From positions 216,870 to 280,869 of the forward strand of contig JAHLKT010000002.1 in NCBI GenBank assembly GCA_020444545.1: 64,000 bases of DNA, given 5' to 3'. Below the pieces are notes generated by a model. It did no database searches, was not told the DNA's origin, and saw only the letters and a program-made list of their open reading frames with translations. The position numbers and the translations under genes are program-made. Positions 3,462-62,674 of this stretch are shown in pieces. Each line of letters opens with the position of its first letter. Position 1 is the first letter of the stretch. The stretch comes from Desulfarculaceae bacterium. Its GTDB lineage: Bacteria; Desulfobacterota; Desulfarculia; Desulfarculales; Desulfarculaceae.

Positions 3462-3507
3462 ATTTACAAGACTCCGGTCAGGAGTTTAATCCTGGATTTA
3501 GAGCAAA

Positions 3508-3546: not shown

Positions 3547-3588
3547 GTTGGGGTCGATTGCATGAATTTTAAACGCCGTCCTTCTGGG

Positions 3589-3606
3589 GCGGCCGGGGCC
3601 GGCCGC
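3589..3606 (-). terminator. GC-rich hairpin just after clpX
   Basis: A perfect 8-bp inverted repeat, GCGGCCGG / CCGGCCGC, starts 4 bases beyond the clpX stop codon. No T-run follows on the minus strand. It is therefore a candidate for transcript 3'-end protection or factor-assisted termination, not a textbook intrinsic terminator. Confidence 0.4.
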
Positions 3607-3610
3607 GCCT

Positions 3611-29225: not shown

Positions 29226-29804
29226 CTAGGGCCTCTCCAGGAGATCGATCACCGGCTCGTTGCCCATGATCACCGCCAAGTCGCGGGGCGTGAGGCCCGC
29301 TTGGTCGCGGGGGTCGGGCGCGGCACCGGCGCGCAGCAAAGTGCGGCTCTGGTCGCGGGCGTAGAGGTTGGGCCAGGCGTAGGCGGCCAGGTGCAAGGGG
29401 GTCTGTCCCGCGTGGTTGCGCGCGTCGGGGTTAGCGCCGTGGGCCAGCAGCGGCTTGATCACCGCCTTGCCCACGCCGAAGGCCGCTGCGTGCAGGGGGG
29501 TGTCGCCCAGGGCGTCCCGGGCCTCGATGTCCGCCCCGTGCCTGAGTAGCAACTCCACCATGGGCGCGTTGCCCTTGAGCACCGCCAGGTGCAAGGCTGC
29601 GCGGCCCAGGCAGACCCGATTGACCGAGGCGGGGTCTTGTTGGAGCAGGGCCTCGGTCCGGGTCAGGTCGCCGTCGCCCACCGCTTTGATCAGGGGCGTG
29701 GGCGGCGGTTGCAAAGCCAGGCAGGCCAACCACAGCCCCAAGGCCGCGGCCGCCACCACCGCCCCCCGCAGGAGGGCCGGCGCGCTGGGTAGGTTCAGGG
29801 ACAT
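29226..29804 (-). CDS. Membrane-anchored ankyrin-repeat protein
   Basis: 192 residues. An N-terminal hydrophobic segment (about 13-31, GAVVAAAALGLWLACLAL) could be a signal anchor. Its LACLAL lacks a canonical lipobox. Five ankyrin repeats follow (about 36-190), three with clear TPLHLAA/TALH-like cores, for example GDTPLHAAAFGVG and GQTPLHLAAYAWP. Ankyrin repeats mediate protein contacts. The gene lies 19 bases after the NeuC-like gene and 2 bases before the membrane protein, so it is inside a sugar-biosynthesis operon, an odd place for one. The partner is unknown. Confidence 0.85.
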   Translation of the reverse strand: MSLNLPSAPALLRGAVVAAAALGLWLACLALQPPPTPLIKAVGDGDLTRTEALLQQDPASVNRVCLGRAALHLAVLKGNAPMVELLLRHGADIEARDALGDTPLHAAAFGVGKAVIKPLLAHGANPDARNHAGQTPLHLAAYAWPNLYARDQSRTLLRAGAAPDPRDQAGLTPRDLAVIMGNEPVIDLLERP

Positions 29805-39019: not shown

Positions 39020-40263
39020 TTGCTCCGGGCCAGGAGCGCCTGGAACCAGGCCTGCTTCTCGATTTGGTCGGCCAGGGCGCGGGCGAAAAGCGCGGCCCCG
39101 TCTGGGTTGTAATGGGAGAGGTCCTCGTACAGGGTCTTGCCGCCTTGGTCCGCGAAGACTTGCGAGAGGTCGTACATGGCGCGCTCTTGGGCCATGCGCG
39201 GGGAGACCAGGCCATAAAAGATGCGCCGCCGCTTGGTCTTCACGGTGGGCCGTCCCTGCTCGTCTTGCACAAAACCCAGCTCATCCTTGGTAAGCGGCTT
39301 GCCCAGGGCGGCCACCGGGCGCAGCACGCCCATGAAGTGGCCTGCTTGGTTCTCCACCGCGCCCCGGTAGTCCATCAGGGTGTTCAGCATGGTGCGGGCG
39401 GTTATGCCCAGCTCCAATGGGGTGTCCGGGCGCGGCCCCTTTTCCGGCGAATCTTGGCGCTCCAGGGCGGTGAGGGCGTTGGTGACCCAGTTGCCCGCGC
39501 CGAAGCGCTGCCCAACGCGGTCCAGCAGCTGGCCGGTGTTGGTGCGCGAGGCGTAATAGGCGATGAATTCGCCGATGCCGGGGGGAACCTTGTTTTGCTC
39601 CATCTGGTTAATGAGGTTGTCCATGGCCTGCATGTAATCGCTCTTCACCGGCTGGGACACGCCCTGGCGGCCCTGGCGGGGCGGCAGCTTGAGGTCGTTG
39701 GAGCCCACCACCGAGATGACCACGTCCGGGGAGAAGGAGCGCACATACAGCAAATAATAGGTGAACTGCTGGAAGGAGTTGTAGCCACGCACGCAGGCGT
39801 TGATCACCTTGATGTCGCGGCCGGGGTGCCGCCGCCGCAGCTCGGCTTGAAAGCGGGAGGGCACGCTCCATTCCGGCTTGCGGCAGCCGATGCCGAAGGT
39901 GGCGCTGGCCCCGGTGAAGGCCAGGCGTATCTCGCCCGGCTGCTTGTGCAGAGTGAGCTTTTCGGCGGTGGTGTTGAAGCCCCACTTGTCCAGGAGGATC
40001 AGGGTGGAGTGCTTGGAGGCGGAGGAATAGTCCACCCAGCGGAAGCCGTCTGGGGTGAAGTAGCGCCAGCCGCAGAGGCCGTCGTAATACTGGATGTGGC
40101 CTTCGTTGGACGCGGGCGAGGCCCCGGCCAGGCGCAGCACCAGGAAGCTGCCCGCCTCCACCGCAGCCAAAAGCAACAGGGCAATGGCCAGGCTCCAGAC
40201 CACCCAGCCGGGGCGGCGGCCTTTTTCGGTGGCGGGCTCTCGTTTTTGCCTTTCTACAGCCAT
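39016..40263 (-). CDS. Membrane-anchored SGNH-hydrolase-like protein, acylation partner
   Basis: 415 residues. A single hydrophobic anchor (about 22-45, VVWSLAIALLLLAAVEAGSF) puts the rest in the periplasm. SGNH blocks are visible: the nucleophile block TGASATFG (117-124, Ser120), VVGSNDL for the oxyanion Asn, and EDLSHYNPDGA near the C-terminus with the Asp-x-x-His pair. It lies 8 bases after an MBOAT gene on the same strand, the usual pairing in which the MBOAT moves an acyl group across the membrane and the SGNH protein places it on a sugar. The acceptor is unknown. Confidence 0.78.
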   Translation of the reverse strand: MAVERQKREPATEKGRRPGWVVWSLAIALLLLAAVEAGSFLVLRLAGASPASNEGHIQYYDGLCGWRYFTPDGFRWVDYSSASKHSTLILLDKWGFNTTAEKLTLHKQPGEIRLAFTGASATFGIGCRKPEWSVPSRFQAELRRRHPGRDIKVINACVRGYNSFQQFTYYLLYVRSFSPDVVISVVGSNDLKLPPRQGRQGVSQPVKSDYMQAMDNLINQMEQNKVPPGIGEFIAYYASRTNTGQLLDRVGQRFGAGNWVTNALTALERQDSPEKGPRPDTPLELGITARTMLNTLMDYRGAVENQAGHFMGVLRPVAALGKPLTKDELGFVQDEQGRPTVKTKRRRIFYGLVSPRMAQERAMYDLSQVFADQGGKTLYEDLSHYNPDGAALFARALADQIEKQAWFQALLARSK

Positions 40264-40270
40264 GGGCCTC

Positions 40271-41713
40271 TCAGAACTCGAAGTAAATGAATTGGGTGGT
40301 GCGTTCCAGGGCGCCGAAGATCAGGAGCAGGGCCATCACCCCCCAGCGCAGTCCGAAGCTCAGGGCCTTGGCCCAGGCGGCCTTGGGCCGGAGCCAGGCC
40401 TTGCGCCAGGGCCGCGCGCCCAGCCAGTGGGTGAGGTAGAGCAGGGCGCAGATGAGCAGAAAGTAGCGATAGTGCCCTTGCAACAGCTGGCCCCATCCCT
40501 CGGGCGCGGCCAACATGCGCCCCCATATCTGCCAGCCGTGGGCCACCGAATCGGCCCGGAAGAACACCCAGCCCAGGGTGACGCAGGCGAAGGTGAGCCC
40601 CACGCCCAGGGCGGCCAGCAGGGGCGAGGCGGCCAGGGGCCGGTCCTTGGGCACTCCCCGCGCGGTGCGCAGCATATCATAGGCCACGATCAACAGGCCC
40701 ATGAACAGGCCCCAGGCCACGAAATGCCAGGCCGCGCCGTGCCACAGGCCCGCGATGAGCATCACCGCCAGGATGTTAAGGTAATGGCGGGCCTTGCCGT
40801 GGCGGTTGCCTCCCAAAGGTATGTAGAGGTAGTCGCGCAGCCAGGAGGAGAGCGAGATGTGCCAGCGCCGCCAGAATTCGCGGGGGTTGGGGGCCAGGTA
40901 GGGATAGGCGAAGTTTTCGCTGAGCCGGATACCTATGAGGCTGCCGCAGCCCCGAGCCATGTCGGTGTAGGCCGAGAAGTCCAAATATATCTGGAAGGAA
41001 AAGCACAAGGTGGCCAGCCACCACACCGCGCCGTCCTGGCCGGCGGCGGGCAGCTTGTAGGCCTGGTCCACCAACACGCCCAGCCGGTCGGCGAAGACCA
41101 TCTTCTTTACCAGGCCGCGCAGAAACAAGTAGATCGCCTGCATGGTCTCGTCCGCGTCGGGCACATGCTTGCGGGCCAACTGGGGCAACACGTTGCCGCC
41201 GCGCTCGATGGGCCCGGCCACCAACTGCGGGAAGAAGCTGATGTACAGGGCGTAGGTGGGGAAGTGGCGCACCGGGGCCAGGTCGCCGCGATACACGTCC
41301 ACCACGTAGGCCACCGCCTGGAAGGTGTAGAAGCTGATGCCCACGGGCAGCAGGAACATGAGGCCTTGCTGGTCGAGCAGGGGCACCAGGCTCAGGCCGA
41401 AGAGGTTGTCCACCTGGCTCAGGGCGAAGTGGGTGTACTTGAACACGGCCAGCACCGCCAAAGGCGCGGCGATGCCCACCAGCAGCCATAGCCTGCGCCA
41501 GGGCGCACCCCCAGAGCGGGCCAGCAACAGTGCGGCGAGGTAGGTGCTCAGGCTGCAGAAGAACAGCAGGAAGATGTAGTACCAAGTGGAGCAGCCGTAG
41601 AAAAAGTAGGAAGCGACCAGCAGGAACCACAGCCCCGCCCGCCAGGGCAGCAGACGGTGGGCCAAGACCACCACCAGGATGAAGGCCAGGAATGTCCAGG
41701 TGTGAAAAAGCAT
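40271..41713 (-). CDS. MBOAT-family O-acyltransferase (AlgI-like)
   Basis: 480 residues with about 10 membrane segments. AlgI-like landmarks are LLPVGISFYTFQAVAYVVDVYRG, SFFPQLVAGPIERG, YLAPNPREFWRRWHISLSSWLRDY and the catalytic-His motif GLWHGAAWHFVAWG. It transfers acetyl or another acyl group toward the periplasm for glycan decoration. GGAAG lies 6 bases before the ATG. It is followed by its SGNH partner. A second MBOAT/SGNH set is at 56484-58995. Confidence 0.92.
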   Translation of the reverse strand: MLFHTWTFLAFILVVVLAHRLLPWRAGLWFLLVASYFFYGCSTWYYIFLLFFCSLSTYLAALLLARSGGAPWRRLWLLVGIAAPLAVLAVFKYTHFALSQVDNLFGLSLVPLLDQQGLMFLLPVGISFYTFQAVAYVVDVYRGDLAPVRHFPTYALYISFFPQLVAGPIERGGNVLPQLARKHVPDADETMQAIYLFLRGLVKKMVFADRLGVLVDQAYKLPAAGQDGAVWWLATLCFSFQIYLDFSAYTDMARGCGSLIGIRLSENFAYPYLAPNPREFWRRWHISLSSWLRDYLYIPLGGNRHGKARHYLNILAVMLIAGLWHGAAWHFVAWGLFMGLLIVAYDMLRTARGVPKDRPLAASPLLAALGVGLTFACVTLGWVFFRADSVAHGWQIWGRMLAAPEGWGQLLQGHYRYFLLICALLYLTHWLGARPWRKAWLRPKAAWAKALSFGLRWGVMALLLIFGALERTTQFIYFEF

Positions 41714-49135: not shown

Positions 49136-49280
49136 GGCACCGGGGGGCGCTACACAATTGTGACAAAGGCCGGGGAATTGGTTACACTGGGGCACCGGAG
49201 GCGCCCGGGGGTCATGGGTGCAGCCTGTTTCCGGAGCCAGGCGCCTTGCGTGCCGAAAATGGGGGAGTAGGAGTCGAGGC

Positions 49281-50375
49281 ATGAAACAGCTTTGGGGCCG
49301 CCTTCAGTGGCAGAGCCGCACCCGAGGCATGTCTCCCCAGGAGATCAAGCAATTCAAGCGGGCCCGGATCATCGCCGACGCCATGGAGGGCAAGACCGCC
49401 TGCCCCGAGGAGTTGCCCGCCCGGATGCTGGCCACCTACCGCCCGGTGCGCGAGCCGCTGTATCTCATCTCCCAGGTGCAGCGCTCCGGCGGGTCACTGC
49501 TCGCCCAGCTCTTCGACGGCCACCCGGAGTGCCACAGCCATCCTTACGAGATAAAGATCGGCAAGCCGGACAAGACGGTGTGGCCCGAGTTCTCGCCCGG
49601 CGAGGCCCCGGAAGAGGCCTTTGCCAAGCTGTTTGAGCACGATTGCATTTCATTCCACCGCAACGGCTACCGCAAGCCGGGGAGAGGCTCCAAGGCCAAG
49701 GGTCAGGACGAGACCTTTCCCTTTTTCTTTCTGGTCCGGGCGCAGCGCGACATCTTTCTGCACTACCTGGCCGGGGTGCCCCAGCCAAGGCCCCGCGACT
49801 ATCTGGACGCCTACTGGACCTCCTATTTCAACGCCTGGGTGAACAACCAGAACCTGAGCGGCGAGAAGAAGTGCGTGCTGGGCTTCACCCCCATGCTGGC
49901 CGCGCGGCCCGAGAGCGTGGAGGGCTACTTCGCGGCCTACCCGGAGGGCAAGCTGGTTTCCCTGATCCGCGATCCCCTGCGCTGGCTGGCTTCGGCCCGG
50001 CGGCACCAGGAGAAATACCGCCAGACCGAGCAGGCCATGGAATATTGGACCGTCTCCACCCAAGCGGCCATCGCCAACGCCGGGAAATGGCCGGACCGGG
50101 TGCGCCTCTACGCCTTTGAGCGGCTCATCACCGACACCCCGGCGGTGATGCGCGACATGTGCGCCTTCCTGGGGCTCCGTTACCGCGATTCCCTGTTGGA
50201 CCCCACCTTCAACCGGTCCCTGATAGCGCCCAACAGCTCCTTCCGGGTGGACGGCAAGGGCATAATAAAGGATGTGGTGGCGCGGCCTCTTGACCTGGAG
50301 CCCGAGGCAATGGCCTATGTGGAGGAGCACTGCCGCGAGCTGCACACCCGGGCCCTGGCCCTGGCCGGCGCCTGA
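49281..50375 (+). CDS. PAPS-dependent sulfotransferase
   Basis: 364 residues from the ATG at 49281 (GTAGGAGTCGAGG upstream). The 5'-phosphosulfate-binding loop is QRSGGSLL (67-74), and the 3'-phosphate motif is LIRDPLRWLASAR with Arg230 and Ser238. These are the two PAPS contacts of the sulfotransferase fold. There is no signal or membrane segment, so it acts in the cytoplasm on a nucleotide- or lipid-linked acceptor. It lies between GT-B-like genes and the NeuB cassette, so the likely acceptor is the glycan of this locus. No PAPS synthesis genes are in the window. Confidence 0.82.
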   Translation: MKQLWGRLQWQSRTRGMSPQEIKQFKRARIIADAMEGKTACPEELPARMLATYRPVREPLYLISQVQRSGGSLLAQLFDGHPECHSHPYEIKIGKPDKTVWPEFSPGEAPEEAFAKLFEHDCISFHRNGYRKPGRGSKAKGQDETFPFFFLVRAQRDIFLHYLAGVPQPRPRDYLDAYWTSYFNAWVNNQNLSGEKKCVLGFTPMLAARPESVEGYFAAYPEGKLVSLIRDPLRWLASARRHQEKYRQTEQAMEYWTVSTQAAIANAGKWPDRVRLYAFERLITDTPAVMRDMCAFLGLRYRDSLLDPTFNRSLIAPNSSFRVDGKGIIKDVVARPLDLEPEAMAYVEEHCRELHTRALALAGA

Positions 50376-50421: not shown

Positions 50422-51480
50422 ATGGCGCGTTCCCTGCTCATTAACGACCGCTTGATTGACGACGAGCATGATTGCTTTGTGATCGCCGAGATCGGCCACA
50501 ACCACCAGGGCGACATGGAGCAGGCTTATAAGCTCATCGCGGCGGCGGCCGAGTGCGGGGCCGACGCGGTGAAGATACAGAAGCGCCACAACAAGAGCCT
50601 GTTCACCCCGCAGATCTACGACGCACCCTATGAGAACGAGAACAGCTTCGGCAGCACTTATGGTCAGCACCGCGACTATCTGGAACTGGAGCCGGAGCAG
50701 ATCGCCGAGCTGATGGCCTATGCCCGCGAAAAGGGCCTGATCATGTTCTCCACGGTGTTCGATTTCATCAGCGCCGACCAGATGGCCGCCCTGGACGCGC
50801 CGGCCTACAAGATGGCCTCGGGCGATTTGTTCAACACCCCGCTGCTTAAGCACGTGGCCGCCCTGGGCAAGCCCATGATCATGAGCACCGGCGGGGCCAC
50901 CATGGACGACGTGCGCCGGGCGGTGGACACGGTGGGGGCCATCAACCCGGATTTCGCCTTGCTGCAATGCACGGCGGGATACCCGCCCGCCTTCAATGAA
51001 CTGAACCTCCGGGTGCTCACCACTTTCCGCGACGAGTTCCCGGACACGGTGGTGGGGCTTTCCTCCCACGTGAGCGGTATCGCCATGGACCTGGCCGCCT
51101 ACATGCTGGGGGCGCGCATCGTGGAGAAGCACTTCACTCTGAACCGGGCGGCCAAGGGCACGGATCACGCCTTTTCCCTGGAGCGGCCCGGCCTGCGCAA
51201 GCTGGTGCGCGACTTTCGGCGGGCTCGGGTGGCCATGGGCGACGGGGTCAAGCGCTCCTATGAGAGCGAGGCCAAGCCGCTGTACAAGATGGCCAAGAAG
51301 CTGGTGGCCGCATCGGATCTGGCGGAGGGCACGGTGCTGGCCCAGGAGCATGTGGCCATCAAGAGCCCCAACGACGGCCTGCCGCCCTACGAGCTGGATA
51401 ATGTCCTGGGCCGGCGGCTGAAGCGGGCCCTCAAGGCCGACGAGAACCTGGCCTGGGAAGACCTGGAGGAGAAGGGGTGA
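50422..51480 (+). CDS. NeuB-family ulosonic acid synthase with SAF domain
   Basis: 352 residues. The barrel has VIAEIGHNHQGDMEQAYKLI (the canonical EIGxNHxG), DAVKIQKRHNKSLFT, YKMASGDLFNTPLL, QCTAGYPPAF, GLSSHVSGIAMDLAAY and the metal-ligand region ARIVEKHFTL. The SAF lid (about 300-350) starts DLAEGTVLAQEHV. It condenses PEP with an aldose. It differs from the NeuB at 30983 in motif details, so the two are not recent duplicates. Its stop overlaps the SDR start (GTGA). It heads the five-gene cassette SDR, ALDH, CMP-transferase, transketolase. GCGAAGGAT precedes the ATG. Confidence 0.9.
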   Translation: MARSLLINDRLIDDEHDCFVIAEIGHNHQGDMEQAYKLIAAAAECGADAVKIQKRHNKSLFTPQIYDAPYENENSFGSTYGQHRDYLELEPEQIAELMAYAREKGLIMFSTVFDFISADQMAALDAPAYKMASGDLFNTPLLKHVAALGKPMIMSTGGATMDDVRRAVDTVGAINPDFALLQCTAGYPPAFNELNLRVLTTFRDEFPDTVVGLSSHVSGIAMDLAAYMLGARIVEKHFTLNRAAKGTDHAFSLERPGLRKLVRDFRRARVAMGDGVKRSYESEAKPLYKMAKKLVAASDLAEGTVLAQEHVAIKSPNDGLPPYELDNVLGRRLKRALKADENLAWEDLEEKG

Positions 51481-52295
51481 GCGGCTCCCTGACCGATCTG
51501 GCTGGGCGCGTGGTGGTGGTCACCGGCGGCCTGGGGCAGCTGGGGCGGCAGTACGCCCAGACCCTGGCCGCGGCCGGGGCCCGGGTGGGAGTGCTGGATT
51601 TGCACGCGGACCAGGCCGCCCTGGAAGAGACCTTTGGCGAGCTGGCCGGACAGGGGAGCCTGTTGCCCTTGGCGGCGGACGTGACCTCGCGCGAGTCGTT
51701 GGTGGAGGCCTTGGCCCGGGTGGAAGAGGCCTGGGAAACGCCGTTCGGGCTGATCAACAACGCGGCCCTGGACTCGCCGCCCAACGCGCCCAGCGAGGAA
51801 AACGGGCCTTTTGAGACCTATCCCGAGGCGTCCTTTGACCAGGTGATGGCGGTCAACGTGAAGGGGGTGTTCTTGGCCTGCCAGGTGCTGGGCGGGGCCA
51901 TGGCCCAGGCGGGGCGCGGCTCCATCATCAACATATGCTCCACCTACGGCGTGGTCTCGCCGGATCAGCGGCTCTACGAGTACCGCCGCCAGCGGGGCGA
52001 GCAGTTTTTCAAGCCCGTGGCCTACAGCGTTTCCAAGAGCGCCTTGCTCAACCTGACCCGCTACCTGGCCACCTACTGGGGGCCCAAGGGGGTGCGGGTG
52101 AACACCATGACCCTGGGCGGGGTGTTCAACAACCAGGACCCCGAGTTCTTGGCGGGCTACGAGGCGCGGGCCCCGCTGGGGCGCATGGCCCAGGAGAGCG
52201 ACTATAACGGGGCGGTGGTCTACCTCATGTCCGACGCCTCGTCATATGTGACCGGGGCCAACCTGGTGATCGACGGCGGCTGGACCGCCTGGTGA
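51477..52295 (+). CDS. Short-chain dehydrogenase/reductase, PtmA-like
   Basis: 272 residues from a GTG overlapping the NeuB stop. The NAD(P) motif is TGGLGQLGR (16-24) and the catalytic residues are Ser155, Tyr183 and Lys187. The INNAALD segment replaces NNAG. NICSTYGVVSPDQRLYEYRR and KPVAYSVSKSALLNLTRYL are close to what I recall of Campylobacter PtmA (flagellin modification). The end VIDGGWTAW is shared with the SDR at 35012. PtmA-type proteins act upstream of legionaminic or related nonulosonic acids, though their precise reaction is not firmly known. Confidence 0.87.
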   Translation: MSGSLTDLAGRVVVVTGGLGQLGRQYAQTLAAAGARVGVLDLHADQAALEETFGELAGQGSLLPLAADVTSRESLVEALARVEEAWETPFGLINNAALDSPPNAPSEENGPFETYPEASFDQVMAVNVKGVFLACQVLGGAMAQAGRGSIINICSTYGVVSPDQRLYEYRRQRGEQFFKPVAYSVSKSALLNLTRYLATYWGPKGVRVNTMTLGGVFNNQDPEFLAGYEARAPLGRMAQESDYNGAVVYLMSDASSYVTGANLVIDGGWTAW

Positions 52296-52306
52296 GGAGC
52301 GAAGCC

Positions 52307-53791
52307 ATGGACAACCCCATACCCGGCGAGGTGCTCAACTGGATCGGGGGCAAAGAGACTCCCGCGGCTGACGGCCGTTTGCTGGACAAGCTCTCGCCGC
52401 ATAACGGGCGGCGACTTTGCCGAATCGCCCGCTCGGGCTGGCCGGAAGTGGAGGCCGCCGTGGCCGTGGCGCGCGCGGCCCAGCCCGCCTGGGCGGCCAC
52501 CCCGCCGGTGCAGCGGGGCCACATCCTGCACCAGGTCTGCAACCTCATGGAGGCGCGGGCCGAGGAGATCGCCAGGATCGTGGCCCTGGAGACCGGCAAG
52601 TCCTTGGCCGAGGCCAGGGGCGAGACCGGCGGGGCCATCGCCCTGGGGCGCTTCTACGCGGGCGAGGGCCAGCGCCTCTACGGCCGCACCACCACCAGCG
52701 GCACGGCCAACAAGTACGCCATGACCCTGCGTATGCCATGCGGCGTGGCCGGGCTGATCATCGCGGCCAACACGCCCATCGCCAACGTGGCCTGGAAGGT
52801 GTTCCCGGCCCTGATCTGCGGCAACGGCGTGGTGCTCAAGTGCGCCGAGGACACCCCGGCCACGGGATGGATCGTGGCCAAGCTCGCCGAGGAGGCGGGC
52901 CTGCCGCCGGGCGTGCTCAACGTGATCCAGGGCCTGGGCATCGAGGCGGGCGCGCCCCTGGCCGAGCAGGCCGAGATCGACGTGCTCTCCTTCACCGGCT
53001 CCAGCAAGGTGGGCCGCCAGCTGGCCGAGGCTGCCGGACGGCGGCTGCTAAAGGTCTCCATGGAGCTGGGCGGCAAAAACCCCCTGGTGGTGTGCGACGA
53101 CGCGGACCTGGAGCACGCGGTGAAGTGGGCCTCGCTGTCGGCTTTTTCCAACGCGGGCCAGCGCTGCGCCGCCGCCAGCCGGTTCATCGTCTTTGAGTCG
53201 GTGTACGACAAGTTCAGAGACATGCTGGTGGCCAAGGCCGAGAGCCTGAAGCTGGGCCCCGAGGACGGCGACGACCTGGGCCCGGTGATCAACCAGCGCC
53301 AGATGGAGAACATGCTGGGCGCGGTGGAGCAGGCGGTGCACGGTGGGGCCAAGCTGCTCTGCGGCGGCCGCCGCTCGGGCGCGGCTTATCTTACCGACGG
53401 CTATTACGTGCTGCCCACCCTGCTGGAAAACGTAGGCCCCGACGACCCCATCTCCACCACCGAACTGTTCGGCCCCATCGCCTGCATGTATCCGGTGCCG
53501 GACTTCCCGGCCGCCCTGGAGCTGGCCAACCGCTCGCCTTACGGCCTCACCGCCTGCATCCACACCACGAGCTTCGACCGGGCCATGGAGTTCACCCACA
53601 AGGTGCGGGCCGGGGTGGCGGTGGTGAACATGGGCACCTACGGCTCGGAGCCCCACATGCCCTTCGGCGGGGTGGGGGTGTCGGGCAACGGCACCCGCGA
53701 GCCAGGCACCGAGGCCCTGGACATCTACTCCGAGCTCAAGGACGTGTACCTCGGCGTGAACCCGCAGGTGGGCGGGGGGACGCGGCCGTGA
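52307..53791 (+). CDS. NAD(P)-dependent aldehyde dehydrogenase
   Basis: 494 residues from the ATG at 52307 with GAGGAGC upstream; a GTG five codons earlier overlaps the SDR stop. Catalytic Cys287 is in NAGQRCAAA, general-base Glu253 in SMELGGKNP, and cofactor residues in FTGSSKVGRQLA (229-240). The C-terminal NMGTYGSEPHMPFGGVGVSGNG is typical. It oxidises an aldehyde, plausibly a sugar or short aldose, to the acid. It is flanked by SDR and CMP-transferase genes with GTGA overlap. ALDHs are not part of known sialic or legionaminic routes. Confidence 0.93.
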   Translation: MDNPIPGEVLNWIGGKETPAADGRLLDKLSPHNGRRLCRIARSGWPEVEAAVAVARAAQPAWAATPPVQRGHILHQVCNLMEARAEEIARIVALETGKSLAEARGETGGAIALGRFYAGEGQRLYGRTTTSGTANKYAMTLRMPCGVAGLIIAANTPIANVAWKVFPALICGNGVVLKCAEDTPATGWIVAKLAEEAGLPPGVLNVIQGLGIEAGAPLAEQAEIDVLSFTGSSKVGRQLAEAAGRRLLKVSMELGGKNPLVVCDDADLEHAVKWASLSAFSNAGQRCAAASRFIVFESVYDKFRDMLVAKAESLKLGPEDGDDLGPVINQRQMENMLGAVEQAVHGGAKLLCGGRRSGAAYLTDGYYVLPTLLENVGPDDPISTTELFGPIACMYPVPDFPAALELANRSPYGLTACIHTTSFDRAMEFTHKVRAGVAVVNMGTYGSEPHMPFGGVGVSGNGTREPGTEALDIYSELKDVYLGVNPQVGGGTRP

Positions 53792-54543
53792 GCGCGCCCA
53801 GCCTGGTGGGGCTGATCCCGGCGAGGGCGGGCAGCCAGCGCATCAAGGACAAGAACGTGGTGCGCCTGGCCGGGCACCCGCTTCTGGCCTACAGCATCCG
53901 CGCGGCGCTCGACAGCGGGGTGTGCGACGCGGTGGTGGTCTCCACCGACAGCGAGGACTACGCGGCCATCGCCCGGCACTACGGGGCCGAGACGCCGTTC
54001 ATCCGTCCCGTGGAGATGGCCGGGGCCAAGTCAATGGACATCGAGTGGGTGCAATTCACCCTGCAAAAGCTGGCCGAGGCGGGGCGCGAGTACGATTGCT
54101 TCTCCATCCTGCGGCCCACCAGCCCCTTCCGTCTGCCCACCACCATCCAGCGCGCCTGGGCCGAGTTCCGGGCAGAAGAGGGGGTGGACTCCCTGCGCGC
54201 GGTGGAGCTGGTCAAGCAGCACCCGGGCAAGATGTGGGTGGTGCGCGATAAGCGCATGACCCCGCTGTTGCCCCTGACCCCGGCGGAGCGCCCCTGGCAC
54301 TCCTGCCAGTACGCGGACCTGCCCCGGGTGTACGCCCAGAACGCCTCCCTGGAGATCGCCTGGACCCGGGTGGCCCTGGAAGGCGGCACCATCGCTGGGC
54401 AGGTGATCATGCCCTTCCTCACCACCGGCAGCGAGGGCTGGGACATCAACCACCCCGAGGACGTGTGGATCGCCGAGCGCCTGCTGGCCGAGGGGCAAGC
54501 CACGCTGCCCAACATAGACATCGAACCCTGGCCCGGCGCCTAA
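53788..54543 (+). CDS. CMP-sugar transferase (acylneuraminate cytidylyltransferase-like)
   Basis: 251 residues from a GTG overlapping the ALDH stop. GLIPARAGSQRIKDKNVVRLAGHPLLAYSI is a NeuA/LegF/PseF CTP-binding motif with Ala-Gly-Ser-Gln-Arg in place of Gly-Gly-Ser-Lys-Gly, so it belongs to a different subgroup from the transferases at 34298 and 35857. ILRPTSPFRLP and YAQNASLEIAWT follow. It probably activates the product of the NeuB encoded four genes upstream. The transketolase gene follows 27 bases later. Confidence 0.9.
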   Translation: MSAPSLVGLIPARAGSQRIKDKNVVRLAGHPLLAYSIRAALDSGVCDAVVVSTDSEDYAAIARHYGAETPFIRPVEMAGAKSMDIEWVQFTLQKLAEAGREYDCFSILRPTSPFRLPTTIQRAWAEFRAEEGVDSLRAVELVKQHPGKMWVVRDKRMTPLLPLTPAERPWHSCQYADLPRVYAQNASLEIAWTRVALEGGTIAGQVIMPFLTTGSEGWDINHPEDVWIAERLLAEGQATLPNIDIEPWPGA

Positions 54544-54570: not shown

Positions 54571-56487
54571 TTGAGCCTGAGCATCAATCTGATCCCCCGC
54601 GAAGAGATCGCCCGCATCTGGAACAGCGCCCTGCCCGAAAAGGAGCGCCTGGCCCTGGTGGCCGACGCCTGCCGGGCCAACGCCCTGGCCGCGGTGAAGC
54701 TGGCGGGCAGCGGGCATCTGGGGTCCTCCTTCAGCGCCATGGACATCGTGGTGTGGCTCTACTACGGGGAGATGAACACCCTGGAGGCGGGCCTGGACTC
54801 GCCGGAGCGTGACGTCTACTTCTCTTCCAAGGGCCACGACGTGCCGGGCCTCTACGCGGTGCTCTACTCCCTGGGCGTGATCAGCGAGGACAAACTCCTG
54901 AACCTGCGCCGACTGGGCGGGCTGGACGGGCACCCGGACATCAATATTCCAGGCGTGGAGGCCAACAGCGGCTCCCTGGGCATGGGCATCTCCAAGGGGC
55001 GGGGCATGGCCTGGGCCCAGCGCAGTCGGGGCGTTGACGTGCGCACCTTCGTACTCACCGGTGACGGCGAGCTCCAGGAGGGGCAGAACTACGAGGGGCT
55101 GCAAAACGCGGCCCACCAGGGCGCGCCCAATTTGGTGGTGATCGTGGATCACAACAAGGTGCAGTCCGACAAGCCGGTGGCCGAGATCTCCGGCCTGGGC
55201 GAGCTGCCCGAGAAGCTGGGCTCCTTCGGCTGGCAGGTGCTCTCCTGCGACGGCCACGACTTCGCCCAGCTGGCCGCCATGCTGGACGAGGCGCGCCAGG
55301 ACTCCCGTCCCAGCATCATCATCGCGCATACTCTGAAGGGGCGCGGCGTGTCCTTCATGGAGCACCCCCGCGCCCTGGCCGAAAACGCGGGCTGCTATCC
55401 CTGGCACGCGGGCGCTCCGGCCGACGAGCCCTTTGCCCAGGCCCACGCCGAGCTGGTGGGGCGGGTGAACGCGGCCCTGGAAGCGGCGGGCCTGGAGGCG
55501 CTGTCCCTGAGGGACGTGACCCCGCCGCCCAAGGCGGCCAGCGGGGTGAGCCCCGAGAAGGTGGCTGCGTCCTATGGCCAGGCGCTGCTGGAGCTGGCCC
55601 CGTTGCACCCCGAGCTGGTGGTGCTGGACGCGGACCTGGCCGTGGACTGCCAGGTGCGGGCCTTCGAGGAGGCCTATCCCCAGCGCTTCATCGAGTGCGG
55701 CATAGCCGAGCAGGACATGGTGTCCATGGCCGGGGGCCTGGCCCGGCAAGGGATGCTGCCCGTGGCCAACAGCTTCGCCTGCTTCCTGGCCAGCCGGGCC
55801 AACGAGAACATCTACAACAACGCCAGCGAACAGGGCCGCATCATTTATGCCCTGCACTACGCCGGGCTAATCCCGGCCGGGCCGGGCAAAAGCCACCAGA
55901 GCCTCAGGGACATCTCCCTGCTGGGCGCGCTGCCGGGCCTGGACATCATGCAGCCCTGCAACGGGGCCGAGACCAAGCAGATGGTGGAGTGGGCCGTGGA
56001 GGACGCGGCTGGGAGCGTTGCTCTCCGCCTGGCCATCGGCCCTTCGCCGCGGATCATCGAGCTGCCCGCGCATTACCAGCTCACGCCCGGCCGAGGCGTG
56101 GCCGTGAGCGAGGGCGGGGACGCGACCCTGGTGGCCTATGGCCCGGTGATGCTGCATGAGGCGCTTGTCGCGGCCGAGCTTTTGGCCAAGCAGGGCGTGG
56201 GGCTCAGGGTGGTGAACCAGCCTTGGCTCAACCGCTTCGAGGAATCGTGGCTGGAGGAGTTGGCCACCGGCGGCGGCCCCCTGGTGGTGCTGGAGGATCA
56301 CTCGCCCGTGGGCGGCCTTGGCGACCGGCTGCGCGCCGCGCTCATGGATCATGGCCTGCTGGGCGGAAAGGCCTTCGCCGTATTGGGGGTGGAGGGCTGG
56401 CCGGCTTGCGGCACGCCGGGCGAGGCCCTGGCTGCCCACCGCCTGGACGGCGCCTCCCTGGCCCAGCGCCTGGCCGCGCTGCTCTAG
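54571..56487 (+). CDS. Transketolase (full-length, single chain)
   Basis: 638 residues from a TTG; CCCGGAG lies upstream. Residues 1-310 are the diphosphate-binding domain, with GSGHLGSS (47-54), KGHD (87-90) and the TPP motif GDGELQEGQ (164-172) to DHNK (193-196). Residues from about 330 form the pyrimidine-binding domain with the activating Glu in ECGIAEQDM. The C-terminal domain follows. It transfers two-carbon ketol units between sugars. Being inside the NeuB/ALDH/CMP-transferase cassette, it is likely dedicated to making an unusual sugar precursor. Its stop overlaps the end of the convergent SGNH gene by four bases. Confidence 0.93.
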   Translation: MSLSINLIPREEIARIWNSALPEKERLALVADACRANALAAVKLAGSGHLGSSFSAMDIVVWLYYGEMNTLEAGLDSPERDVYFSSKGHDVPGLYAVLYSLGVISEDKLLNLRRLGGLDGHPDINIPGVEANSGSLGMGISKGRGMAWAQRSRGVDVRTFVLTGDGELQEGQNYEGLQNAAHQGAPNLVVIVDHNKVQSDKPVAEISGLGELPEKLGSFGWQVLSCDGHDFAQLAAMLDEARQDSRPSIIIAHTLKGRGVSFMEHPRALAENAGCYPWHAGAPADEPFAQAHAELVGRVNAALEAAGLEALSLRDVTPPPKAASGVSPEKVAASYGQALLELAPLHPELVVLDADLAVDCQVRAFEEAYPQRFIECGIAEQDMVSMAGGLARQGMLPVANSFACFLASRANENIYNNASEQGRIIYALHYAGLIPAGPGKSHQSLRDISLLGALPGLDIMQPCNGAETKQMVEWAVEDAAGSVALRLAIGPSPRIIELPAHYQLTPGRGVAVSEGGDATLVAYGPVMLHEALVAAELLAKQGVGLRVVNQPWLNRFEESWLEELATGGGPLVVLEDHSPVGGLGDRLRAALMDHGLLGGKAFAVLGVEGWPACGTPGEALAAHRLDGASLAQRLAALL

Positions 56488-57518
56488 GGCCGCTTGGCGG
56501 GGGCGAGGGCCTGGGGGCCCAGCACCCGCTTCAGCTCGCGGCACAGAATCTTCCCGTACAATCTGGTGCCCTGCCAGTTCAGGTGCATGATGTCCGCCCA
56601 GAAGGGCCGGGGCCACAGCTCGGCCCGGGTGTCGATGACCACGACGCCGGGCAAGGCCCGCTCCAGGGGCGCGGGGTCCAGCTCGATATAGCGGTTGGCC
56701 CGGCTCGGGGCCAGGTTTAGCACCAGGCGCTTGCCCTGGTCCTTGGCCAAGGCGGCCAGGGCGGCCAAGTAACGCAGCACGCCAGGGTCCATGGGTTTGT
56801 TGCGATAGTCGAGGATTTTTTCAGGTGGGTCAAAGCCCTTTTGGTCCGCGAAAACCTGGCCGTCGCCGTTGTTGAACAGCACCACCAAGCGGTCCTGATC
56901 CCCTCGGATGTAGTTCACCTCCCGGCTGTCATCGCCGGGGTCGTAGCCGTACTTTTGTTTGAGTAGGGTTCTCCAGCGGGCCTGATTGGGCAGGCTGCGC
57001 TCGCGGCGCTCCAAATAGCGGTCCAGCCGATTCATGGCCAGGGAGCGCAGGAACAAGGGCAGGCCCAGGTCGCCCAGCAGCTTGGGATCGTGGCGCAGGA
57101 AGAAGATGATTTCGCCCATGGTGAGCCAGCGGGGCTTTTGCATGGGCTCGAACAGGCGCATGGGGTCCAGGCTGAGCACCACCACCCCGCCGGTCCGGCA
57201 GGCGGCCTGGTTCAGGGAGAAGACCTGCTCGTTGATCAGGTTGCCCGGCAGGCCCAGGTTGAAGGCGTCGATGCCGCAGCGGGCCAAGAGAGCGGTGTCC
57301 ACGTGGTTTTGGGTCTGGGAGGAGCCCACGAAGATCACGGGGTAGCAACGCTTCTGGACCTGGAGCAGGGCGGTCTTGGAGAGCTTGCCCTCGTACCATA
57401 TCCCTTGGCTGGCCTGCCAACGCAGGTACAGCTTGAAGCCCAGGTTATAGGCGGTCAGCGACAAAAGGCTGAGCGCCAGCACCCCGAAGAAGAATATTTT
57501 TGCCCGCGTCTTATTCAT
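56484..57518 (-). CDS. Membrane-anchored SGNH-like protein, acylation partner
   Basis: 344 residues. An N-terminal anchor (about 8-27, IFFFGVLALSLLSLTAYNLG) is followed by a periplasmic domain with VIFVGSSQTQNHVD (possible nucleophile Ser in GSSQ), NLGLPGNLINEQ and a C-terminal DIMHLNWQGTRLYG carrying the Asp-x-x-His pair. It resembles the acetyl-transfer partner proteins of alginate and wall polymers more than true GDSL lipases. It starts four bases after the MBOAT stop on the same strand, forming the second MBOAT/SGNH pair of the window. Confidence 0.72.
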   Translation of the reverse strand: MNKTRAKIFFFGVLALSLLSLTAYNLGFKLYLRWQASQGIWYEGKLSKTALLQVQKRCYPVIFVGSSQTQNHVDTALLARCGIDAFNLGLPGNLINEQVFSLNQAACRTGGVVVLSLDPMRLFEPMQKPRWLTMGEIIFFLRHDPKLLGDLGLPLFLRSLAMNRLDRYLERRERSLPNQARWRTLLKQKYGYDPGDDSREVNYIRGDQDRLVVLFNNGDGQVFADQKGFDPPEKILDYRNKPMDPGVLRYLAALAALAKDQGKRLVLNLAPSRANRYIELDPAPLERALPGVVVIDTRAELWPRPFWADIMHLNWQGTRLYGKILCRELKRVLGPQALAPAKRP

Positions 57519-57522
57519 AAAC

Positions 57523-58995
57523 CTAGAAGTTGAAGTAGATGAATTCGCTGGGCGCCATGGAGGCCAGCTTGATCAGCGAAAGGCAGCCCAGGGCCGAGGC
57601 CCCCAGGGTGGCGGCGGCCAGGCGGGGCCGGGTGGCCAGGTAGCCCTCCAGGCGCGAGGCCCATTGCATGCTGTTGGGCAAGGCCAGGCAAACAAAGGCA
57701 AATATCACGAGATAGGCTAAGGTGTGCAGGTTAACCACCGCGTGGCTCCAGGCCGGGGCCGCGCTTTGGCCCAGCATGGCCAGGAACATGTGCCAGGCCT
57801 TGGTGATGGACTCGGCCCGGAAAAGCACCCAGGCGAAGTTTACGAACAGGAACGTCACCAGCCAGCCCAGGGGGCGGGGCAGGCGATAGCCCCCCAGCTT
57901 CCACAGGCGGCTGATGATCAAGGCCAAGGCGTGCAGCACCCCCCACAGGGCGAAGGTCCAGTTGGCCCCGTGCCAGATGCCGCCCAGCAAAAAGGTGATG
58001 AACACGAACAGTAGCGACTTGGGCACGCCCTTGCGGTTGCCGCCCAGGGGTATGTAGATGTAGTCGCGCAGCCAGCGGGACAGGGTCATGTGCCAGCGCC
58101 GCCAGAAGTCCTGGATGTCGCCCGCCTTGTAGGGCGAGTCGAAGTTAAGGGGCAAGATGATGTTGAACATCAGGGCGCTGCCCAGGGCGATGTCGCAGTA
58201 GCCCGAGAAATCGAAATAGATCTGGAAGGTGTATGAGAGGCTGGTGCCCCAGGAGTCCAGCAGGGACAGGGGATGGCCGGCCGCGAAGCCCTTGTTCACC
58301 CACACGGCAAAGGTGTCGGCCACGAAGACCTTCTTGAATAACCCGATGACGATGAGGCACAGGCCGGTGGCCCGGTTGCCCCAGTCGGCCCGGAACAACT
58401 CCGGCCGCTTGAACTGGGGCATCATCTCCCGGTGGTGCACGATGGGCCCGGCCACCAACTGGGGGAAGAAGGACACGAACAGGGCGTAGTCCAAAAGGCG
58501 GTACTGGTCGCAGATGCCTTTCCTCACGTCGGCCAAATAGGCGATCTGCTGAAAGGTATAGAAGCTGATGCCCAGGGGGATGAGCATTTCGAGCAGGGGC
58601 GGGTCGTCCACGCCCATGACCCAGGCCGCGTTGATGGAGATGAAGTCGAAATATTTGAAGAAACCCAGCAGCCCCAGGTTGAAGGCCACGCCCAGCACCA
58701 GCAGGGCGCGGGGGCCCAGGGCGGTGGCCAGGCGGGCGGCCCACCAGGGCGGGCGGCCGGAGGGCCCGGCCCCGGCCGGGGCCAGATAGGCCAGCAGGCT
58801 GCCGAAGGCAAAGTTGACCAGGATGGAGACCAGAAGGATGGGCAGATAGACCGGCTTCCAGGAGCCGTAGAACACCAGGCTGGCCAGGATGAGCAGGGAC
58901 TTGGCCAGGGAGGGCCAGCGGCGGCCCAGGAGGTGGAAGCAGACGGCCACGATGGGGAGGAACAGGAAAAGGTATGGGAAGGAGTTGAAGAGCAA
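57523..58995 (-). CDS. MBOAT-family O-acyltransferase (AlgI-like)
   Basis: 490 residues from a TTG at 58995, read MLFNSFPYLFLFLPI, the standard AlgI-like beginning. GGGAG lies 8 bases before it; upstream in-frame starts lack a site. About 10 membrane segments. Signatures are LIPLGISFYTFQQIAYLADV, SFFPQLVAGPIVHH, DIQDFWRRWHMTLSRWLRDYIY and the catalytic-His motif GIWHGANWTFALWG. It is the partner of the SGNH-like protein that follows. The promoter is at 59063-59091. It would add an acyl group to an exported glycan. Confidence 0.92.
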   Translation of the reverse strand: MLFNSFPYLFLFLPIVAVCFHLLGRRWPSLAKSLLILASLVFYGSWKPVYLPILLVSILVNFAFGSLLAYLAPAGAGPSGRPPWWAARLATALGPRALLVLGVAFNLGLLGFFKYFDFISINAAWVMGVDDPPLLEMLIPLGISFYTFQQIAYLADVRKGICDQYRLLDYALFVSFFPQLVAGPIVHHREMMPQFKRPELFRADWGNRATGLCLIVIGLFKKVFVADTFAVWVNKGFAAGHPLSLLDSWGTSLSYTFQIYFDFSGYCDIALGSALMFNIILPLNFDSPYKAGDIQDFWRRWHMTLSRWLRDYIYIPLGGNRKGVPKSLLFVFITFLLGGIWHGANWTFALWGVLHALALIISRLWKLGGYRLPRPLGWLVTFLFVNFAWVLFRAESITKAWHMFLAMLGQSAAPAWSHAVVNLHTLAYLVIFAFVCLALPNSMQWASRLEGYLATRPRLAAATLGASALGCLSLIKLASMAPSEFIYFNF

Positions 58996-59062
58996 GCAGC
59001 GAACTCCCCGTGGACAGGTCAGGGCCGGTGCTAAGGAAAACGGCCGGTTGACACCGCGACCA

Positions 59063-59091
59063 AGTATGCCCCAAGGCGAGGGATATGACAA
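59063..59091 (-). promoter_or_regulatory. Sigma-70-type promoter for the second MBOAT/SGNH operon
   Basis: On the minus strand TTGTCA (plus 59086-59091), a 17-base spacer and CATACT (plus 59063-59068), about 60 bases ahead of the TTG start. The gap is shared with the divergent deacetylase-sulfotransferase gene. Confidence 0.55.
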
Positions 59092-59217: not shown

Positions 59218-61176
59218 ATGGCTGCAAAGCTCAGCAAATTTCGCCTGATCGACCGCGCGTTGCCCGGCCTCTCCGAGCTGGGCTACCGCTTGCTTTTCGG
59301 AGCCCACTCCCAGGCCGGCCCCCAGGATCGCGGACGGCTGGTGGCGGACTACCTGCGCCGCACCCGCGACCTCGAGGTTTTGCAGCGGGTGCTGGCCGTG
59401 GGCAACCTGCCCAAGGCGGCGGCGCCCCAGCTGGTCCCCGCTCCCTCGGGACGCCGCTTACTGGTACTGGCTCCCCATCAGGACGACGAGATAATCGGCT
59501 GCGGCGGCATGCTCTTGCAGGCCATGGCACAGGGCTGCGCGGTGCGCGTGGTCTACCTTACGGACGGCGTGGGGGCCAGGCTCAAGGGCGCGGAAGCCCG
59601 GGCCTATGGCCAACAGAGGCGGCAAGAGGCGCTGGAGGTTTGGGGCGATCTGCCCGCCGGCGAGCCGGTGTTCCTGGACCTGCCGGGCAAGGCCATGCCC
59701 CTGGACCAGGCAGCGGTGCGGGCCGTGGGCCAGGCGGTCGAGGATTTCGCGCCGGATATGGTGCTGCTGCCCTTTTTCCTGGAGCCGCCAGAAGACCACC
59801 GCAAGTGCGCCCGTCTGTTCTGCCTGGCCGCCCGGGAGCGGGGCCTGGCCGTGCCCGAGGTCTGGAGCTACCAGGTCTACGGCAGCCTGGCGGCCAACCT
59901 GGCGGTGGACATCAGCGCGGTGGCCCCGGAAAAGGCCCGGCTCATGGGCCTGTGGCGTTCCCAGAACCAGGTCTACGATTGGGCCTCCTATGCCATGGGA
60001 CTGGCCTCAGTGAACTCCTGGCAGGTGAAGAATCAACTCCCTAGGGGACAGGCCGAGCCCCGGGTCGAGCTGTTCCTCTCTTTGCCCCTGGGCGAGTACC
60101 TGGCCTTGGCGGGCGGGTTTTTTGGGGGCGCGCCACAACGCGAGGCGTATCCCGGCCCGCGGCCCGAGGCGGGCGGGGGCGAGCAAGACGCGGCCGCCAA
60201 GCTGAAGCAGCGCTGGATAACCGCCAAAAGCCAAGCCAAGATGGGCCTGCGCCGTTTGGAGGTGCTGGCCCGGCCCGGCGAGTATTACGCGGAGCAGGGG
60301 CCGGACTTTTTGGTGGTGGGCTTGCAGAAATGCGGCACCTACTGGCTGACCAACCTGCTGATGAATCACCCGGAGGCCTCCTGCCAGCCCACCCAGCCCG
60401 AGGGCGAGGACCGGGTCAAGGAAGGACATTTCTTTGACGCGGTGGGCGCCCTGGACAGCGACCCCGAGTTTTTTAGACGGCGGATGCTCTACAAGCATCA
60501 CGGCTTTTTCGCGGACCTGGCCCAGCCCACCCTGCGGGCCGGAACCGCCGGACGTGGGGCCGCCTTGGCCAAGCTGTGCCGCCGCTACAACGCCTTCGTG
60601 CGCCGCAACGCCCGGCCCGGCGCCCGCCTGGTGGGCGAGAAGACCGCCGAGTACATCTTCCATCACCAGCTCATCGGACAGCTATATCCCCAGACCAAGC
60701 TGGTCTGCGTGATGCGCCATCCCCGCGACCGCATCGTGAGCTTCCATCACCACCAGATCCGCAAGGGCCGCTGGGACCACGCGGAGATCGAGGATTGGGA
60801 GGTGGCGCAGTACTGCGACAGGGTGGCCTGGGAATACGCCTGCCTGTTAGAGTGCCAGCAGGCGCTGCACCTGATCACCTACGAGGAGTTGACCCGCCGG
60901 GGCCCGGAGACCGTGGCCGGCCTCTGCCGCTTCCTGGGCCTGGACGCTTCTGCGGAGGTGGTGCAAAAGATGCTGGACCAGGCGCGCTTCGACCGCCTGG
61001 CCAAAAAGAACCCCGGCGCGGGCAACCCGCACCAGCACTTCCGCCAGGGCAAGGTGGGCGAGGGCAAGCAGCGCCTGAGCCCGGCCCAGCAGGCCATGAT
61101 CCAGGAGCGCCTGGGAGAGCTCACCCGCCGGGTGGCCGAGCGCTATGGCCTGGACCTGGGGGAATACCTGGAATAG
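59218..61176 (+). CDS. Bifunctional PIG-L deacetylase / sulfotransferase fusion
   Basis: 652 residues in one uninterrupted frame. Residues about 78-300 are a PIG-L/LmbE deacetylase: APHQDDEIIGCGG (85-97) with metal and catalytic His87, Asp89 and Asp90, and the second metal region PPEDH (190-194, His194). Residues about 361-650 are a sulfotransferase: PAPS loop QKCGTYWL (370-377), GEKTAEYI (473-480) and RHPRDRIVSF with Arg500 and Ser508. A charged linker (about 310-360) joins them. Predicted action: remove an N-acetyl group from a sugar, then sulfate the freed amine, like animal NDST but with different folds for deacetylation. There is no signal peptide, so it is cytoplasmic. The N-sulfation step is inference. 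Confidence 0.88.
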   Translation: MAAKLSKFRLIDRALPGLSELGYRLLFGAHSQAGPQDRGRLVADYLRRTRDLEVLQRVLAVGNLPKAAAPQLVPAPSGRRLLVLAPHQDDEIIGCGGMLLQAMAQGCAVRVVYLTDGVGARLKGAEARAYGQQRRQEALEVWGDLPAGEPVFLDLPGKAMPLDQAAVRAVGQAVEDFAPDMVLLPFFLEPPEDHRKCARLFCLAARERGLAVPEVWSYQVYGSLAANLAVDISAVAPEKARLMGLWRSQNQVYDWASYAMGLASVNSWQVKNQLPRGQAEPRVELFLSLPLGEYLALAGGFFGGAPQREAYPGPRPEAGGGEQDAAAKLKQRWITAKSQAKMGLRRLEVLARPGEYYAEQGPDFLVVGLQKCGTYWLTNLLMNHPEASCQPTQPEGEDRVKEGHFFDAVGALDSDPEFFRRRMLYKHHGFFADLAQPTLRAGTAGRGAALAKLCRRYNAFVRRNARPGARLVGEKTAEYIFHHQLIGQLYPQTKLVCVMRHPRDRIVSFHHHQIRKGRWDHAEIEDWEVAQYCDRVAWEYACLLECQQALHLITYEELTRRGPETVAGLCRFLGLDASAEVVQKMLDQARFDRLAKKNPGAGNPHQHFRQGKVGEGKQRLSPAQQAMIQERLGELTRRVAERYGLDLGEYLE

Positions 61177-61222: not shown

Positions 61223-62674
61223 TTAAGCGGACAAGGACAGGATGCGCTGAGCCACGGCCCGTCCCGCGCGGCCCCGGTTCACGGGCACCATGGTCTGGGC
61301 CAGGGCGGCCCGGTTTTGCCCATCCAGGGCGGGGTCGGCCAGATAGCGGGCTATGTAATGGTCCAGCTCCTCAAGGGAGTAAGCATTGCGGCAGGCCCCG
61401 CTGTCCAAGACCACCTTGAGGTGCATGTAGTTCTCGAAGTGCTTGGCCGGCAGGTTGGTGTCCCAGAAGCGGAAGGTAGCCACGTTGACGATGGGGGTGT
61501 CCACCAGGGCGGCCTCGATGATCAGGGTGGAGTACTCGGTGAGTAGCAGATCGGCCTGGCGCAGGGTCTCGGCCAGGCCCAGCAAATCCTCGCGGGGCAT
61601 GTTCAGCCCGGCCTCCAAGGTCTGGATGTCCGGATGGGCGAACTTGATTAGCGAACCGTAGCGTTGTTCCAGGGAGGCGATGCGCCCGTCAAAGGCGTCC
61701 ACCGTGATGCGGCCGCCTTTTTGCTGGCGGAAGTAGGAGGGATGCAGGCGCACCAGGAGCTGGGCGGGCCGGCCATAGGCGTCCCGCGCGATGGCCTCCA
61801 TGATGGACTCAATGGCGTCAAAGGTGTTGGGGAACATCTTGGCCGCCGAGGTGCCGTAGAAGATCAGCTTGCGGGCGGGGTCCAGGCCCAGGGAGGCGCA
61901 GAACTCCTCCCGCGAGCGCAGGGGCCGGGGCGGGTCGAAGTAGTGGTCCCAGTGGGCCACGCCCTCCACGAAGACGCGCTGCTTGGGGATGTCCTGGAAC
62001 ACCTCTAGCTCATCGGCCATGACCTGGTTCCAGGCGATGGCCGCGTCGGGGTCGGCCCCGCGATAGCCCTTGGTGGTGGGGTTGTCCCAGGAGTGCACCA
62101 CCGAGACCACCGGGCATCCGTGCCGCCGGGCGGCGCGCATGAACAGCACGTCATGGCCGTAGCCCACCGAGGAGGTGACCAGGGCCCGGGGCCGGTACTT
62201 GGCGAAGTAGGGGTCGTAGAGCTTGCCTGGGGCCAGGGCGCTCTCCAGGGCCACCAGCCCGTGGCGCAGGAGGCGCGTTCGGCTGCCCAGAGCGGCCGCG
62301 CCGGTGACGATCTTGGCCAGGGCGCGGGCGCGGAGGCTGTCAGCCGTGGAAAAGCCGTACAGCTCCACCCAGGTCTGGTCCGTGGTGTTGCTGAGCCCGC
62401 CCCGGCGGCCGGACATGAAGCGCCGCACCCGCTGGAGCTGCTGGTTCAGGCGTCCCGTGGCCAGCGCCTTTTTGGCGGCAACGGTCTTAATGGGTTCGAA
62501 GATGATATTCTCGCCGCCTAATAGGTCCTGGTAATAGCTCAGGTCCTGGTCCTTGACGAAAAAGACCAGCCGCGCCCCGGACTCGCGCAGCCCGGCCAGC
62601 ACCTCGGAGTGCAGAAAGTAGCGCACCGAGGGGTTGCGCCAGATGGATATGAACAGGGTGGTGGGGGGCGTCAA
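61223..62674 (-). CDS. GT-B-fold protein related to CDP-glycerol glycerophosphotransferases
   Basis: 483 residues from a TTG with AAAGGAA six bases upstream. It is a clear paralogue of the protein at 37553: VVHSWDNPTTKG, RVFVEGVAHWDHY, LVRLHPSYF and LTEYSTLIIEAALVDTPIVN correspond one to one. The N-terminal half (FISIWRNPSVRYFLHSEVL) differs more, so the acceptor may differ while the donor half is kept. It is soluble and has no membrane segment. It is convergent with the deacetylase-sulfotransferase gene and divergent from the CBS-nucleotidyltransferase gene. Confidence 0.7.
   Translation of the reverse strand: MTPPTTLFISIWRNPSVRYFLHSEVLAGLRESGARLVFFVKDQDLSYYQDLLGGENIIFEPIKTVAAKKALATGRLNQQLQRVRRFMSGRRGGLSNTTDQTWVELYGFSTADSLRARALAKIVTGAAALGSRTRLLRHGLVALESALAPGKLYDPYFAKYRPRALVTSSVGYGHDVLFMRAARRHGCPVVSVVHSWDNPTTKGYRGADPDAAIAWNQVMADELEVFQDIPKQRVFVEGVAHWDHYFDPPRPLRSREEFCASLGLDPARKLIFYGTSAAKMFPNTFDAIESIMEAIARDAYGRPAQLLVRLHPSYFRQQKGGRITVDAFDGRIASLEQRYGSLIKFAHPDIQTLEAGLNMPREDLLGLAETLRQADLLLTEYSTLIIEAALVDTPIVNVATFRFWDTNLPAKHFENYMHLKVVLDSGACRNAYSLEELDHYIARYLADPALDGQNRAALAQTMVPVNRGRAGRAVAQRILSLSA

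Follow-up and report, generated by a model that had tools for sequence, protein, structure and literature searches.

Fusion gene and its glycan locus

The window, a 64,000-nucleotide stretch of the genome of a Desulfarculaceae bacterium, is a large glycan locus. It contains a gene in which a PIG-L deacetylase and a sulfotransferase are joined (protein P0001; Table 1). The open reading frame has 652 codons, an ATG start and no internal stop, and both Pfam domains were detected far above chance, which confirms the first-pass annotation that both enzymes share one 652-residue frame. GC content at the three codon positions (73/45/87%) is alike in both halves, indicating a real high-GC gene and no obvious chimera. 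A chimera or assembly artefact is also unlikely given the length of the contig (839 kb, in an assembly of 11 contigs scored 100% complete) and the colinear relative described below.

P0001 is the sole PIG-L protein of its genome. Two matches to APS kinase were found in the genome, and PAPS can therefore be made. Hydropathy analysis revealed no strong transmembrane segment (best 19-residue mean 1.37), which fits the use of cytosolic PAPS, and the protein is apparently soluble.

Table 1. Genes, domains and predicted functional residues in the window.
Feature	Coordinates	Strand	Basis
Second, unfused sulfotransferase upstream of NeuB	49218..50375	+	PF13469 E 3.2e-11
NeuB-type nonulosonate synthase with SAF domain	50422..51480	+	PF03102 E 2.9e-75; below NCBIfam cut-offs of Neu and Pse synthases
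SDR oxidoreductase, NeuB operon	51477..52295	+	PF13561 E 2.6e-44
Aldehyde dehydrogenase, NeuB operon	52292..53791	+	PF00171 E 5.7e-148
PseF/NeuA-like CMP-sugar cytidylyltransferase	53788..54543	+	PF02348 E 8.2e-20; TIGR03584 117.9 bits, below cut-off
Transketolase-like protein	54571..56487	+	Pfam
SGNH-like partner of MBOAT, by resemblance	56484..57518	-	no Pfam match; local BLASTP E 3e-05 to L143 MBOAT neighbour
MBOAT O-acyltransferase, divergent neighbour of fusion	57523..59091	-	PF03062 E 5.6e-37
AGGA, possible ribosome-binding site, 4 nt before ATG of P0001	59210..59213	+	sequence
Fused PIG-L deacetylase/sulfotransferase gene (P0001, 652 aa)	59218..61176	+	single ORF; two Pfam domains
PIG-L domain core, residues 82-201	59461..59820	+	PF02585 E 2.9e-20; AlphaFold2; Foldseek
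HQDDE, residues 87-91; H87/D90 metal ligands and D89 catalytic base by family analogy	59476..59490	+	invariant in six subfamily members
H194, third metal ligand by family analogy	59797..59799	+	invariant in six subfamily members
Inter-domain linker, residues 304-354	60127..60279	+	pLDDT under 50; TGA of L002 in equivalent region
Sulfotransferase domain, residues 362-635	60301..61122	+	PF00685 E 5.1e-20; PF13469 E 1.6e-18; Foldseek
5'-PAPS P-loop GLQKCGTYW, residues 368-376 (K371)	60319..60345	+	sequence and alignment
E402 in VKEGHFFD, putative catalytic base	60421..60423	+	Glu in 11/11 aligned sulfotransferases
R500...S508, predicted 3'-phosphate site of PAPS	60715..60741	+	invariant in 11 aligned sulfotransferases
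BFO_1060-like glycosyltransferase, convergent neighbour of fusion	61223..62674	-	NF046086 E 1.6e-10, below cut-off

The surroundings had been described as a sugar-acid locus with two acylation systems, and both NeuB-type genes and two MBOAT systems are indeed present. The second MBOAT gene, accompanied by a GDSL-type partner, lies at 39016-41713 and represents a further acylation system. NeuB-type genes number three in about 55 kb, within and just beyond the window, and the two additional synthases are each located beside or near a NeuC-type 2-epimerase (30983-32032 with 29824-30993 in the window; 2700-3737 with 4664-5854 in L103). An ankyrin-repeat protein is also encoded inside the locus (29226-29804). 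The unfused sulfotransferase upstream of NeuB has weak similarity to the sulfotransferase domain of P0001, and paralogy between the two was rejected.

Deacetylase and sulfotransferase domains

PF02585 matched P0001 with 73.5 bits against the curated Pfam cut-off of 28.2, placing it in the PIG-L family. The AlphaFold2 model of this part is confident (pLDDT mostly 80-96 over residues 70-300). Its best Foldseek match was N,N'-diacetylchitobiose deacetylase (E 3.9e-11), and other matches included BshB, further LmbE-fold enzymes and the hydratase GalB; the solved folds close to the model are mostly N-deacetylases. The HxDD motif and the distal histidine characteristic of these enzymes are represented by H87, D89, D90 and H194. 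The HxDDE motif assigned earlier to residues 87-91 was found as H87-Q-D89-D90-E91, that is, HQDDE in place of the usual HPDDE, and PEDH likewise takes the place of the usual HPDH.

The sulfotransferase domain scored 72.4 bits with Sulfotransfer_1 (PF00685, cut-off 22) and 68.2 bits with PF13469 (cut-off 27), well within both families. Its PAPS-binding motifs, expected at residues 370-377 and at Arg500/Ser508, are 370-QKCGTYWL-377, R500 and S508, so that the site includes K371, G373 and T374 of the P-loop together with R500 and S508 for the 3'-phosphate. E402 occupies the position of the conserved acidic residue and is the putative catalytic base; it and H194 are functional residues missing from the first-pass list, and both are present in P0001. 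Loss of catalytic residues in homologues, which had been named as evidence against a working enzyme, was not seen: all six subfamily members share the same PIG-L residues, and the 11 aligned sulfotransferases all retain E402, K475, R500 and S508. As read from the sequence, both active sites of P0001 are intact.

The sulfotransferase half was modelled poorly by AlphaFold2 (mean pLDDT 59.5) because its alignment was shallow, and no viral sequences that could deepen it were found. All top 50 Foldseek matches of this model were PAPS sulfotransferases. NDST and 3-OST enzymes were not the closest ones: in sequence profile comparisons 3rnl, retinol dehydratase and SULTs ranked above NDST1 (1nst, E 5.6e-4), and by fold, with the low-confidence model, 3rnl, TPST and SULT matched while NDST1 appeared at rank 23. 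The domain is generic, and its resemblance to NDST does not exceed that to SULT or TPST.

Relatives and recurrent pairing with sulfotransferases

When 84,980 species genomes were scanned for exact peptide patterns, the only sampling that most other phyla received, one close full-length relative was found: L002, from Acidobacteria bacterium AH-259-G07, with 39% identity to P0001. Its two domains are colinear with those of P0001 and share a reading frame, which a single TGA (8832-8834) interrupts between the halves; the sulfotransferase runs off the contig. Fission of the gene, a nonsense change or an error in sequencing could each explain the TGA, which was read as a residue in the joint alignment with P0001. 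The fusion may have had a single origin and later been split in L002, or adjacent genes may have become joined. Both halves are the nearest to those of P0001, at 202 bits for PIG-L (next best sequence found, 108 bits) and 195 bits for the sulfotransferase (next best, 70 bits). Genes of thiamine-type transketolases or E1 components occur in both loci (54571-56487 in the window and 835-2936 in L002).

The first-pass annotation had proposed searching for the domain architecture and inspecting its gene neighbourhood. The search yielded no second intact fusion in at least about 1,280 distinct genomes (1,994 with repeats) plus plasmids, phages and viral contigs, covering the phylum and class of the window, Acidobacteriota, Bacteroidota, the phylum of L003 and IMG/VR; the neighbourhood part did bear out, with PIG-L found beside a sulfotransferase in Bacteroidota nonulosonate loci. 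Proteins with PIG-L and further in-frame sequence were frequent (L017, L021, L023, L024, L026, L028, L029, L064, L067, L068 and L072). Long-frame PIG-L proteins of Acidobacteriota were considered as further fusions and rejected, since the four tested combine PIG-L with GT2 and not with a sulfotransferase; those of the phylum of the window resemble them by eye. The literature, mostly that outside subscription journals, yielded no account of a PIG-L–sulfotransferase fusion and none that places PIG-L in a nonulosonate pathway.

In four Bacteroidota loci (L004, L005, L141 and L143), a PIG-L of the P0001 subfamily is located next to NeuA/B/C-type genes, i.e. nonulosonic-acid (sialic-acid-like) genes. 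A sulfotransferase gene immediately precedes PIG-L in three of the four (L141, L004 and L005), while in the nonulosonate locus L143 an MBOAT cluster is present and no sulfotransferase was found. The BFO_1060-like glycosyltransferase next to the fusion is related (25% identity, E 3e-31) to the product of the gene directly upstream of the L141 pair, and relatives also occur in L005 and L143. Among 40 PIG-L loci, a sulfotransferase was fused or within 2.5 kb in five, NeuB was within 10 kb in five, and both were present in four. This co-occurrence gave a Fisher exact p of 2.7e-4 in a small sample, where two of the four double-positive loci belong to the same genus and L004 and L005 were retrieved by a search with P0001.

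The six PIG-L sequences group in a single, weakly supported clade (82/47). In the sulfotransferase tree P0001 and L002 are sisters (100/98), and L141, L004 and L005 form a separate clade (98/99). The gene order is also opposite, the sulfotransferase preceding PIG-L in these three loci and following it in P0001. The different clade and the opposite order argue that related PIG-Ls recruited a sulfotransferase on two occasions, and judging from these sequences the pairing appears to have originated twice or more. Of the evidence obtained here, the two recruitments argue most strongly for both activities belonging to one pathway.

Proposed function and relation to NDST

We propose that P0001 has two activities on a glycan containing nonulosonic acid, from which it would remove an N-acyl group before sulfation; N-sulfation is the likeliest outcome, at slightly less than an even chance. 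It would work in the cytoplasm as a soluble glycan-modifying enzyme. The PIG-L domain, with its predicted metal site H87/D90/H194 and base D89, would take N-acetyl or another N-acyl group off an amino sugar that is part of a surface glycan with nonulosonic acid, or of the nucleotide-sugar or lipid-linked precursor of that glycan. The sulfotransferase domain, using the P-loop K371, the base E402 and R500/S508, would then transfer sulfuryl from PAPS to that sugar, the acceptor most likely being the freed amine. We infer both activities, the shared substrate and nitrogen as the acceptor; N-deacetylation followed by N-sulfation is the simplest reading because the deacetylase exposes an amine and a sulfotransferase follows, as in NDST.

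Both domains might instead act on the same glycan with the sulfate going to a hydroxyl of the same or a neighbouring residue, and the amine staying cationic or being re-acylated, for example by one of the MBOAT systems; an MBOAT adjoins the fusion. We regard this as possible, if on balance improbable. O-sulfation is the activity of most Sulfotransfer_1/3 enzymes, and none of the solved structures nearest to the domain (3rnl, SULTs and TPSTs) is a glycan N-sulfotransferase. The L143 locus, in which the PIG-L subfamily is paired with MBOAT and no sulfotransferase was found, indicates that the exposed amine can remain unmodified or be processed differently. Most of the same facts would also be accounted for by O-sulfation in which the amine is left free or is re-acylated; however, it leaves the fusion itself, and coupling twice with sulfotransferases from different clades, without an explanation.

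The frequent joining of PIG-L to other glycan enzymes, such as GT2 in Acidobacteriota and in the phylum of the window, and the single case of an intact fusion would fit a chance fusion of two unlinked activities within a polysaccharide locus, PIG-L and the sulfotransferase serving different precursors. This is unlikely in view of the colinear relative in another phylum and of the independent adjacency in Bacteroidota nonulosonate loci. Still less probable, and in our view hardly to be expected, is that one of the domains is inactive or that PIG-L is not a deacetylase but, for instance, a hydratase or an amidase of another substrate. The hydratase GalB does fall within the PIG-L fold, and the HQDDE and PEDH variants depart from the usual motifs, but none of the six subfamily members has lost the metal ligands or the base, and most of the close solved folds are N-deacetylases.

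The N-deacetylation and N-sulfation proposed for P0001 resemble those of animal heparan sulfate NDST1-4, in which one chain likewise combines, in the same order, a metal-dependent N-deacetylase at the N-terminus with a PAPS sulfotransferase at the C-terminus. In NDST1 the deacetylase adopts an Agd3-like (beta/alpha)7 barrel, has a His-His-Asp triad and is accompanied by an additional N-terminal domain; NDST resides in the Golgi as a type-II membrane protein (PMC10864358). P0001, by contrast, is a bacterial and apparently soluble protein with a PIG-L deacetylase. The earlier statement that the two deacetylase folds are unrelated is thus correct, the PIG-L/LmbE fold standing against the (beta/alpha)7 barrel (PMC10864358). 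Pfam revealed only PIG-L and sulfotransferase domains in P0001 and no NDST-type (HSNSD/Agd3-like) deacetylase. Membership of P0001 in the NDST family is ruled out by the deacetylase fold and the ranking of the sulfotransferase, and a convergent solution is plausible.

In fold, HxDD(E) motif and distal histidine, P0001 is similar to the PIG-L/LmbE deacetylases BshB, MshB and diacetylchitobiose deacetylase, its nearest solved folds, but these enzymes stand alone, while P0001 has an N-terminal extension and a sulfotransferase in addition. The PIG-L and GT2 fusions, common in our searches, also join a bacterial PIG-L to a glycan-modifying domain, the partner being a glycosyltransferase instead of a sulfotransferase. 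Artificial fusions of a deacetylase with an N-sulfotransferase domain produced N-sulfated heparosan; they were built with NDST, CE4 and CE18 deacetylases, with no mention of PIG-L (PMC13353177). Those proteins are designed, whereas P0001 is natural.

A broader interpretation, which we consider doubtful but possible, is that P0001 represents a natural bacterial counterpart of NDST with a PIG-L fold, making an N-sulfated amino sugar (a sulfamate) that could be a nonulosonic acid, and that coupled N-deacetylation and N-sulfation has arisen repeatedly in bacteria, this PIG-L subfamily having acquired sulfotransferase partners on two or more occasions. No report of an N-sulfated nonulosonic acid was found in the literature. 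In a Pontiella polymer, 75-80% N-sulfation was estimated by dye binding and nitrous acid, and glycosaminoglycan sulfotransferases were stated not to be known in prokaryotes (PMC7356697). The same methods revealed more N-linked than O-linked sulfate in granular sludges, alongside nonulosonic acids, and the dominant genera there had few sulfotransferase matches (PMC10483923). Animals carry out deacetylation and N-sulfation with an unrelated enzyme when making heparan sulfate, and active expression of NDST in bacteria is described as a bottleneck for heparin making (PMC13353177). P0001 and its subfamily are a specific candidate enzyme for the N-sulfated bacterial polymers reported without a known enzyme and, if active, P0001 would be a soluble bacterial alternative to NDST for heparin making.
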